Made by a program: the position numbers and the translations under genes. A DNA stretch of 64,000 nucleotides from an uncultured cyanobacterium. GTDB taxonomy: Bacteria > Cyanobacteriota > Cyanobacteriia > PCC-6307 > Cyanobiaceae. Shown piece after piece: positions 3,610-9,063 of the stretch; position 1 is the first letter of the stretch, and the number at the start of each line of letters is the position of its first letter. The stretch lies in NCBI GenBank assembly GCA_903935205.1, contig CAIZQU010000114.1:1-64000 (forward strand), given 5' to 3'. The notes beneath the pieces are model-generated. The model made no database searches, had not been told where the DNA came from, and worked only from the letters and a program-made list of their open reading frames with translations.

Positions 3610-4536
3610 ATGATTGCAAACCGAACGTTGATGGCCTCCAGAACAGCCGCCAGATTGTTGGATTGGTCTATCGGGAGGCTCAGGAACGCTCCGACGCGAT
3701 CCGGCTGGCTGAGCCGCTGGCCAAGGCTGGCCCCGATCCTTCTGGGCGCCACGGCCCTGATCGGTCAGGTCGCCCAGGCGGCCCCGCAGCAATTCCATGG
3801 CCTGATCGAACTTGACTACGGCAGCAGCCTGCCGGGCGCGCCAAAACACAGCCGCTATTTTGTTGATTTTGTGCTGGATGATTCGGTGCTCGACACCGAC
3901 AACACCGTGTTCGAAAATGATCTCTACAATGCCAACGGCATCCGCGGCATCACCACCACCGGTGTCTTTGATCGGCCCTTCCTATCGCTGAAGCTGAGCA
4001 TCGATCCCAGCAGTAGCGCAACACTGGACCTGTCAGGTCTGAACTTCGAATTGGACAACCCGAATTCCAACTTCTCACGGGTTGTCGATGCCAACCAGCC
4101 GCCCGATCCCCAGGCTCCTCCCTGCGACGTATACACCTGTCACAACGAGCACATCACCCTGATGGCTCGCGACATGACATCGGGCCTGGCCGTCCATCAT
4201 GTCTGGTTCAATCTCTACAACAGCAATTTTTACAATCCGATTTACGCCTCGCGCCAGCTTCTGCTCGATACGAGTGCATCGGGCCTTCCCTTCTCCTTCG
4301 CTGATCTCTTCCTGCACGGCCCCCAGACCCTGGCCGAATTCCGCAGCCATCGCACACCCAACATCGCCGAGCTCCGCGATCCGGTGCTCCTCACCGGCCC
4401 CAACGGCACCGTGGCCTCCGGCCGCTTTCTCAGCCTGGCTTATGTGGCACCGGCCCCGGCGCCCCTGCCCTTGCTCGGCCTGGGTGCTGCCCTCGCCGGC
4501 AGCCGTCGTCTACGGCGCCGGATCAAGGCCGGATGA
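3610..4536 (+). CDS. Exported protein with CTERM-like C-terminal sorting signal
   Basis: A 308-residue protein. A basic N-terminus with a hydrophobic segment (LAPILLGATALIGQVAQA, ending near residue 58) looks like a long signal peptide; a second Met at residue 8 is an alternative start. The body has no family I recognise; it has a DVYTCHNEH stretch with two cysteines and is rich in Asn, Asp and aromatic residues. The C-terminus (PAPAPLPLLGLGAALAGSRR followed by LRRR) has the tripartite form of PEP-CTERM/VPxxP-type signals: Pro-rich motif, one hydrophobic helix, Arg cluster. Such signals are known to direct proteins to exosortase-type or related envelope anchoring. No exosortase gene is visible here. 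Role unknown, probably envelope or extracellular matrix. Confidence 0.8.
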   Translation: MIANRTLMASRTAARLLDWSIGRLRNAPTRSGWLSRWPRLAPILLGATALIGQVAQAAPQQFHGLIELDYGSSLPGAPKHSRYFVDFVLDDSVLDTDNTVFENDLYNANGIRGITTTGVFDRPFLSLKLSIDPSSSATLDLSGLNFELDNPNSNFSRVVDANQPPDPQAPPCDVYTCHNEHITLMARDMTSGLAVHHVWFNLYNSNFYNPIYASRQLLLDTSASGLPFSFADLFLHGPQTLAEFRSHRTPNIAELRDPVLLTGPNGTVASGRFLSLAYVAPAPAPLPLLGLGAALAGSRRLRRRIKAG

Positions 4537-6986: not shown

Positions 6987-8138
6987 ATGGCCAGCCTCCA
7001 CATCGCTAACACGGTCTCCGACCTGATCCAGGGAGACGTGCAGGAACACCTGCCGCTGGAGCGGATCCCGCTGGCGGGGGATGTGCTGGGCCTGGGGACC
7101 ACCAGCGGCTGGGATAACGGCGAACTCACCTTCCTCTGCGACGATCCAGCAAGCCGGCAGCCGGTGCACACCCGTGTGTACAAGAGCGAACCTCACAACG
7201 GCGGGCTCCGGCTGCTGGAGCCCGGCCCGGGCCTGCAGCACTTCCCCTTTGCGTGCTTCAGCGCCGATGCCACCGGCCTGCGCCGGCCGGTGCCGCCAGC
7301 GCTGCTGAGCGGAGCGGCCGACCGGCCGCTGCAGGCGGTGGTGGCCGAGGCGATCGCTGCGATGACTGCCGAGGGACTCCTGGAGCCAGCGCCGATCTAC
7401 GGCCTGCGGCTGCTGAGTCGCTGGAGCGGCCTGGTGATCACCGTGGCCTCCAAGCTCTGCCTGGGGCAGCGGCGCCGCAATCAGGGCCTGGCCAGCCTGC
7501 AGCCCCTCGCTGCCGGCCCCGAGGGGCTGCAGGCCAGCATCTATGAGCTCCTGCCCCACTTCCGCCTCAGCGCCGAGGACCCCGGCGATCCGGCCGATCC
7601 GATCCGCTGGCTGAGCGACAGCCTGCAGTGGGAAGGCTGCGGCTTCTACGACACCGCGCCCGAGCTGGGGCGGGTGACGGTGCCCGTGCCGGAGGCCCAT
7701 CTGCATCTGCACGGTTGCAGCACCGATCTGCGCCATGGCGGCCACCTGCTTCACGACCACCCGGCCACGGCGCTGGCGGCGATCGACTGGCTGGTGCTCT
7801 ACCCGCTGCAAGAGATCATCACGCTGGGCGCGGATCTGGCGGTGCGGGATCTCAGCTGGCGCCAGGGGGAGGCGCAGTTCAGCGTGGTGAACCAGGGCAG
7901 CCTGGATGCCAGCGAGGTGGGCGTGGCCGTGGTCGTCAACGACCGCTATTCCGGCCATCGCTATCTGCGGCTGCCCTGGCTGGGTGCGGGAGAAGCCGAG
8001 CGTGTGACGATGCCGCTCCCGCTTCCGGCCGGCTCCCATCGGCTGGAGGTGATTGTGGATCCCGAGCGCAACATTCTCGAGGAGGAATCACGGCGGGCCA
8101 ACAACCGCCAGATCCTGGAGCTGGAGCTTGGGGAGTGA
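6987..8138 (+). CDS. Acetolactate decarboxylase-like protein fused to CARDB domain
   Basis: About 383 residues from the ATG at 6987 (GGAG two bases upstream); an upstream in-frame ATG at 6879 would add an Arg/Pro-rich, low-complexity tail. Residues 1-275 follow the alpha-acetolactate decarboxylase plan: N-terminal NTVSDLIQGDV, then GDVLGLGTTSGWDNGELTFL, and late in the domain HLHGCSTDLRHGGH. The spacing H240-x-H242-x10-H253 is that of the three zinc-binding histidines in this family, which converts 2-acetolactate to acetoin. Residues 284-381 form a beta-rich CARDB-like module ending EESRRANNRQILELEL, typical of extracellular adhesion or matrix proteins. No signal peptide is seen. The combination is unusual; activity may differ from classic AlsD/BudA. 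No acetolactate synthase gene is nearby. Confidence 0.72.
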   Translation: MASLHIANTVSDLIQGDVQEHLPLERIPLAGDVLGLGTTSGWDNGELTFLCDDPASRQPVHTRVYKSEPHNGGLRLLEPGPGLQHFPFACFSADATGLRRPVPPALLSGAADRPLQAVVAEAIAAMTAEGLLEPAPIYGLRLLSRWSGLVITVASKLCLGQRRRNQGLASLQPLAAGPEGLQASIYELLPHFRLSAEDPGDPADPIRWLSDSLQWEGCGFYDTAPELGRVTVPVPEAHLHLHGCSTDLRHGGHLLHDHPATALAAIDWLVLYPLQEIITLGADLAVRDLSWRQGEAQFSVVNQGSLDASEVGVAVVVNDRYSGHRYLRLPWLGAGEAERVTMPLPLPAGSHRLEVIVDPERNILEEESRRANNRQILELELGE

Positions 8139-8422: not shown

Positions 8423-8806
8423 TCAGGTGATAAATCCGAGGATCTGGCCCACGATGTCCAGCACCGCATCGAGCTGCTCCTCCCTGAGTTGGCCCATGGG
8501 GTGGGGGCGTGCGCCGCGGGCTTTCCAATCGAACGACTTGATCTGGTGACAGAGCACGAAGCTGTGGGCGTCGGCTCGATCCGGGATGGGTCCAAGATCT
8601 ACGGCGAGAGAGGAACCCTGGTTGTAGGCCGCTGAGGTCATCGCGCAGCCGACGACCAGACCCACAGCCCGGTGGAAGGGTGCGGTGGACAGCACCAAAA
8701 ACGGATGATGGTCTTTCATCTCCCTGCCGGCCTGGGGGGTGTGGTCGATCCAGATCACATCACCCCGATCGGGCAACCAATCGGCCCGCCGCCGCGGTGG
8801 CGTCAT
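8423..8806 (-). CDS. MazF/PemK-type endoribonuclease toxin
   Basis: A 127-residue protein with the family core: PDRGDVIWIDHTPQAGREMK, then HHPFLVLSTAPFHRAVGLVVGCAMTS, and a C-terminal helical stretch. MazF toxins cleave mRNA at short sequence motifs and are neutralised by their antitoxin. The RGD-x-W start, the loop with conserved Arg, and the T-S of strand 3 are all present, so it appears intact. Its ATG overlaps the antitoxin stop by 4 bases, implying translational coupling. Its 3' end abuts the superoxide dismutase remnant on the other strand. The target motif cannot be predicted. Confidence 0.88.
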   Translation of the reverse strand: MTPPRRRADWLPDRGDVIWIDHTPQAGREMKDHHPFLVLSTAPFHRAVGLVVGCAMTSAAYNQGSSLAVDLGPIPDRADAHSFVLCHQIKSFDWKARGARPHPMGQLREEQLDAVLDIVGQILGFIT

Positions 8807-9063
8807 GGGATGAGCTCATTGCCGAGGGGTTCCCAGGCCATCGCTTCGGTGGGTTCGCCCGGCATCGGCCGATAAGCGGCCAGCCGCTCGGCCAGGGGCC
8901 GTCTGGGCTGGACGGGACGGATCAGCACGCCTTCCGGCACCACCTTCAATTCCACGGTCTGGTTGTCGTGGAGCCGTGCCTCGCGGGCCACGGCGGCCGG
9001 CAGCCGCACGCCAAGGGAATGGCCCCAGCGGCGCAGATCCTGGCGAGGGAGCGAGGGGGCCAT
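8803..9063 (-). CDS. MazE-like AbrB-fold antitoxin
   Basis: An 86-residue protein. Residues 7-50 are the swapped-hairpin AbrB/MazE DNA-binding fold (RRWGHSLGVRLPAAVAREA, then VELKVVPEGVLIRP); the acidic, Pro-rich C-terminus (RPMPGEPTEAMAWEPLGNEL) is the expected toxin-wrapping tail. It binds and inhibits the downstream MazF and normally represses its own promoter. It sits first in the two-gene operon and overlaps mazF by 4 bases. Confidence 0.88.
   Translation of the reverse strand: MAPSLPRQDLRRWGHSLGVRLPAAVAREARLHDNQTVELKVVPEGVLIRPVQPRRPLAERLAAYRPMPGEPTEAMAWEPLGNELIP

Follow-up and report, generated by a model that had tools for sequence, protein, structure and literature searches.

An open reading frame in the window (the whole 64,000-nucleotide stretch of uncultured cyanobacterial DNA analysed here) encodes a 383-residue protein in which a zinc-enzyme domain resembling acetolactate decarboxylase (AlsD) is joined to a C-terminal CARDB domain (Table 1). 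On balance, we favor the reading that this protein is a cytosolic zinc enzyme on its own branch of the AlsD/C11orf54 superfamily, and that it probably decarboxylates a 3-oxo acid other than acetolactate. The preliminary description of this DNA had proposed both the fusion and a divergent enzyme with a new substrate. Profile searches, the predicted fold, and all 16 family members scanned bear out the fusion, and a divergent enzyme with a new substrate is the likeliest reading of the evidence presented below.

Table 1. Positions in the window of the AlsD–CARDB gene and its principal parts.
Feature	Position	Strand	Basis
Whole coding sequence, ATG to stop, 383 aa	6987..8138	+	Open reading frame
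AlsD-like zinc-enzyme domain, residues 1–284	6987..7838	+	Domain-only model; hhalign to cyanobacterial AlsD; MAFFT
C-terminal CARDB domain, residues 285–383, replacing the AlsD tail	7839..8135	+	PF07705 match; 3idu_B fold match
E46, equivalent of the presumed catalytic Glu65 of AlsD	7122..7124	+	Alignment; conservation
T152-VAS-K156-L-C158 motif, with T152 at the AlsD Arg145 position	7440..7460	+	hhalign; three MAFFT runs
Putative zinc-site motif H240-x-H242-x10-H253-x2-H256-x-H258	7704..7760	+	Conservation counts

A search with the two Pfam profiles named in the preliminary description gave a divided result: CARDB (PF07705) matched residues 297–373 at 28.7 bits, above its cut-off of 22.7 (E = 1.6e-6), whereas the acetolactate decarboxylase family (PF03306) matched residues 7–50 at 18.6 bits, below its cut-off of 25. 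The NCBIfam AlsD model, TIGR01252, scored 10.8 bits against a cut-off of 180.65; by comparison, it gives 219 and 221.5 bits for two true AlsD proteins from the protein's own bacterial family. Because both the PF03306 and TIGR01252 scores lie under their cut-offs, the protein is not called AlsD by sequence alone. The N-terminal AlsD motif noticed earlier, GLGT..GE, is present, as is the zinc signature H-x-H-x10-H, in the form H240-x-H242-x10-H253; both are shared with AlsD/BudA. Homologues start at roughly the same position. Judged by eye, no hydrophobic stretch is seen in the N-terminus, MASLHIANTVSDLIQGD, in agreement with the earlier remark that a signal peptide is lacking, and the protein is probably cytosolic. 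Since no signal peptide is evident, the label "adhesion-type" that had been attached to the CARDB module is unsupported.

AlphaFold2, applied to the whole protein (pLDDT 86.7, pTM 0.84) and to residues 1–290 (pLDDT 85.2, pTM 0.86), predicts an AlsD fold followed by a CARDB fold. When compared with AlsD crystal structures, the whole model gave 1xv2_C as its best Foldseek match (E = 2.8e-9) and VIA-align Z scores of 18.7–19.8; the domain-only model gave a best Foldseek E value of 2.8e-10 and Z scores of 17.9–18.6 (18.6 for 1xv2_C). Foldseek TM-scores to AlsD by query length were moderate, 0.44–0.55 for the domain, in keeping with a distant relative. The fold shared with AlsD/BudA (4bt2, 6j92, 1xv2) extends over ~215 residues, and the CARDB-fusion protein differs by an insertion at roughly residues 160 to 214. 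The C-terminal part of the whole model matched the CARDB structures 2kl6 (Foldseek E = 5.7e-5) and 3idu_B (VIA-align Z 14.7, 101 residues, rmsd 1.8), although, unlike known CARDB domains, this one is fused to a zinc-enzyme domain in a protein without a signal peptide. Profile–profile comparison (hhalign) with 14 cyanobacterial AlsD sequences gave E = 2.2e-7 for full-length rows and a weaker E of 8.4e-5, at 60% probability, for domain-only rows. Searching PDB sequences with the protein alone returned no match at E ≤ 1, and the family profile brought up only weak rows, at E = 0.16 and up.

The same architecture recurs in other genomes. With the alignment as query, 73 pattern matches in named genomes yielded 43 loci of the AlsD–CARDB gene, all titled cyanobacterial; most belong to Cyanobium, Vulcanococcus, and Synechococcus (including WH7803), with some unplaced cyanobacteria and one metagenome-assembled genome titled Prochlorococcus. 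Scans of named genomes with the single protein (33 pattern matches) and of viral contigs (42 pattern matches) yielded no relative. At E ≤ 0.001, the gene was matched in 6 of 60 relatives, 14 of 386 phylum-sample genomes, and 39 of 196 genomes of its own bacterial family, counts that all take in the window's own genome. Among the 39 are three weak matches (G447, G493, and G504) and three copies in pieces (G456 and the split copies of G287 and G464); the co-occurrence counts given below use the 36 genomes that remain when the three weak matches are left out and G456 is kept. Distant members outside the family are 47% (G046), 41% (G161), and 36% (G171) identical. Both Pfam families were matched in 16 of 16 members scanned, at E values up to 10, and the fusion is thus a fixed trait of the set; these proteins form a conserved two-domain family. 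A literature search on AlsD–CARDB fusions and cyanobacterial AlsD homologues returned no title on this family, which is no proof that none exists.

Alignment placed the AlsD zinc ligands H194, H196, and H207 (4bt2 chain) at H240, H242, and H253, and Glu65 at E46. In a conservation count of 57 rows, with gaps excluded, two rows repeating a twice-fetched gene, and some rows being fragments, each of these histidines was found in 55 of 56 rows, the lone exception being the broken copy L087, and E46 was unchanged (54/54 rows). The position of AlsD Arg145 was mapped with hhalign and with three MAFFT strategies on 45 family rows merged with 14 AlsD rows; all agreed on T152, which is threonine in 55 of 55 rows. 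Equally constant were K156, C158, H256, and H258 (55/55 rows each), and R164, H191, and D283 are further invariant polar residues. We take Glu65, Arg145, and the C-terminal Glu253 to be the catalytic residues of AlsD and, from the chain range, presume that Glu253 lies in the AlsD tail. All three MAFFT alignments end the AlsD-like domain at D283–L284, and because CARDB comes at once, this tail has no counterpart in the family; in the alignment, on which this observation rests, CARDB adjoins directly and no conserved glutamate occurs within 20 columns past L284. Another glutamate from elsewhere in space could stand in for Glu253.

Measured against the features that the preliminary description had singled out for a decarboxylase, the fold is matched and the first glutamate is kept, whereas the arginine is an invariant threonine and the C-terminal glutamate lacks a counterpart. 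Because the metal ligands, E46, K156, R164, H191, H256, H258, and D283 are invariant, the active site appears changed rather than decayed, and a retained metal site and glutamate within a new invariant set are easier to reconcile with a shift in substrate than with decay of an AlsD. Acetolactate is most likely not the substrate, since Arg145 has given way to an invariant threonine and CARDB replaces the tail with the second catalytic glutamate. The missing pair of AlsD catalytic residues also means that decarboxylation itself is not secured.

These substitutions bear directly on the possibility that the protein is an acetolactate decarboxylase after all, one that relies on different residues (K156 in the role of Arg145, for example) and converts acetolactate from the branched-chain amino acid pathway into acetoin. 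We consider this improbable. The common fold and zinc motif speak for it, as do the window's genome, which has no PF03306 match, and the small overlap between intact AlsD and the CARDB-fusion gene, which occur together in 2 genomes compared to 5.1 expected (196 genomes, P = 0.07, relatedness ignored). However, those same two genomes hold an intact AlsD in addition to the fusion gene, the catalytic arginine is missing from every one of 55 rows, and the tail glutamate has no equivalent. Moreover, tblastn (E ≤ 1e-5) over the 64-kb window returned neither AlsS nor AlsD nor a pyruvate-decarboxylase-like ThDP enzyme, confirming the earlier statement that no acetolactate synthase is nearby, and tblastn likewise returned none in the DNA flanking the 43 named loci (up to 10 kb, less where a contig ended). 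Thus, with T152 in place of the arginine, CARDB in place of the tail glutamate, and new invariant residues, identity as an acetolactate decarboxylase is not supported.

The preliminary description had also regarded acetoin production as atypical of cyanobacteria, which is too strong. Of 196 genomes in the family, 30 have a PF03306 match above cut-off, as do 20 of 377 phylum-sample genomes; two genomes of one genus (G375 and G528) have an AlsS–AlsD pair with both members above NCBIfam cut-offs; and one review cites acetolactate decarboxylase in connection with acetoin fermentation by picocyanobacteria of the deep Black Sea (PMC8955281). The acetoin trait is thus not foreign to these bacteria, yet the CARDB-fusion gene is no evidence for acetoin. 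Separately, in G020 and G417, both of which carry the fusion gene, the AlsD match is limited to C-terminal pieces covering the zinc motif. At L124:2839-3693 and L125:2734-3591, AlsD lies beside AlsS and has an extra N-terminal stretch of ~50 residues that looks ribbon-helix-helix-like by eye; the NCBIfam AlsD model begins at residue 52–53 in these two proteins.

Structural comparison pointed to one further relative. In the VIA-align list for the domain-only model, rows 1–9 were AlsD or AlsD-like and row 10 was human PTD012 (1xcr_A; Z 13.3, 227 residues, rmsd 4.7), with the next row at Z 6.8; PTD012 was absent from the best 50 Foldseek rows for either the whole or the domain-only model. C11orf54/PTD012 (DUF1907, PF08925; 1xcr) has in common with our family the fold, three zinc histidines, which we take to be H266, H268, and H278, and a GGH-x-H motif; by eye, the family's GGH-x-H after the zinc site resembles PTD012 more than the GGH-x-L of AlsD. 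PTD012 differs in its H-x-H-x9-H spacing (x10 here), in having no CARDB domain, and in showing no detectable sequence similarity to the family, with no signal in the profile comparison (hhalign E = 0.17). PF08925 matched 0 of 16 members at E values up to 10, a range in which HMMER filters drop most matches above ~0.1, and the absence of DUF1907 matches from 194 cyanobacterial genomes is uninformative because the controls gave none either. Human C11orf54/PTD012 has been reported as a 3-dehydro-L-gulonate decarboxylase, which recently tied it to AlsD: both are characterised decarboxylases of this fold and act on similar 3-oxo acids (PMC12435205). As PTD012 is the lone non-AlsD row above Z 6.8 and is a reported decarboxylase, the most parsimonious guess is that the CARDB-fusion family decarboxylates a 3-oxo acid.

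An earlier report that PTD012 hydrolyses p-nitrophenyl acetate (PMC12435205) raises the alternative of a zinc-dependent esterase or lactonase, in which a zinc-bound water attacks the ester or lactone and the extra invariant H256 and H258 could act as general base. This, too, seems unlikely, because PTD012 is reported as a decarboxylase in that same paper and hhalign detects no sequence link from our family to PTD012. Least probable is a non-enzymatic zinc-binding protein with a structural or sensing role, in which CARDB would bind protein partners; CARDB domains are often ascribed binding roles and two catalytic positions have been lost, but the invariant set of ligands and polar residues listed above suggests a changed rather than a decayed active site.

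Gene order was compared across 44 loci, the 43 named loci and the window, with each neighbor family identified from one example. In 23 of the 44, a gyrA-type gene is found no more than six genes away, and in 20 it lies directly upstream; lycopene cyclase is within six genes in 22 and directly downstream in 17; and a GH57 protein is within six genes in 22, the window among them. Genes in the gyrA loci overlap or nearly touch, which suggests an operon with housekeeping genes. We rejected the idea that the gene beside gyrA lacks its own start, as an in-frame ATG closely precedes the gyrA stop codon in all seven loci concerned (L048, L050, L054, L060, L062, L063, and L068). The neighbors in marine strains, WH7803 for example, are a PurQ-like amidotransferase, an LD-carboxypeptidase, and a fructose-bisphosphate aldolase, and in eight loci one cluster directly precedes the gene, its single scanned example having a YCII-related domain. 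The commonest neighbors are housekeeping genes and give no pointer to the substrate.

Within the window, Pfam identified a PemK/MazF-type toxin and MazE-type antitoxin pair directly after the gene (8423-9063, minus strand), in the place that lycopene cyclase occupies in many relatives. A single open frame at 11697-44306 (minus strand) encodes a giant repetitive protein of 10,869 residues, surface or exported by eye, and the protein encoded at 3610-4536 (plus strand) has, by eye, a PEP-CTERM-like C-terminal end and no Pfam match.

In one distant member, G161, the gene follows a ThDP enzyme and an MFS transporter after 107 bases. This ThDP enzyme is nearest to indolepyruvate/pyruvate decarboxylases (TIGR03393, 413.9 bits, below the cut-off of 946). 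G171, which belongs to the same genus, has the identical gene order, and the two therefore count as one observation, which speaks for the favored reading but comes from a single genus. In the G171 copy (L090:6748-7704, minus strand), nothing matches residues 1–49 of the closely related G161 protein, E46 included; this copy is truncated, changed, or misassembled. Of the 196 family genomes, 16 have a homologue of the ThDP enzyme at E ≤ 1e-100; 7 of these 16 belong to the 36 that carry the gene, compared to 2.9 expected (P = 0.013; relatedness is ignored and the figure carries little weight). In those 7 genomes, the ThDP homologue sits on other contigs or more than 200 kb from the gene, and the other 29 have none at this threshold. 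In G375 and G528, a homologue of the ThDP enzyme is located near the AlsS–AlsD pair.

The analysis establishes the gene, its distribution and conservation, the aligned substitutions, and, as predicted models, the two folds; for the favored 3-oxo acid decarboxylase, we infer a cytosolic location, zinc binding, decarboxylase chemistry, and roles for the new residues and for CARDB along the following lines. A zinc ion would be held by H240, H242, and H253 with help from E46, and would bind the oxygens of the 3-oxo acid and stabilise the enediolate left once CO2 leaves. Binding and protonating the substrate probably fall to K156, H256, and H258, and CARDB probably serves to close off the active site or to form the dimer. 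A more specific version, which we offer tentatively and think doubtful in its full detail, is that the family represents a third superfamily branch, marked by the zinc triad, the glutamate, a Thr-x3-Lys motif with an extra His pair that replace the arginine and tail glutamate of AlsD, and a CARDB lid, and acting in picocyanobacteria on a sugar-type or ThDP-made 3-oxo acid. We know of no gene assigned to such a decarboxylation in picocyanobacteria. Strains whose genomes are complete, Synechococcus WH7803 among them, carry the gene, and its function is therefore directly testable. If true, the existence of a third branch, strongly conserved and with an altered active site, would illustrate how the fold can move from one substrate to another and would indicate a reaction that awaits assignment in picocyanobacteria of fresh and marine waters.
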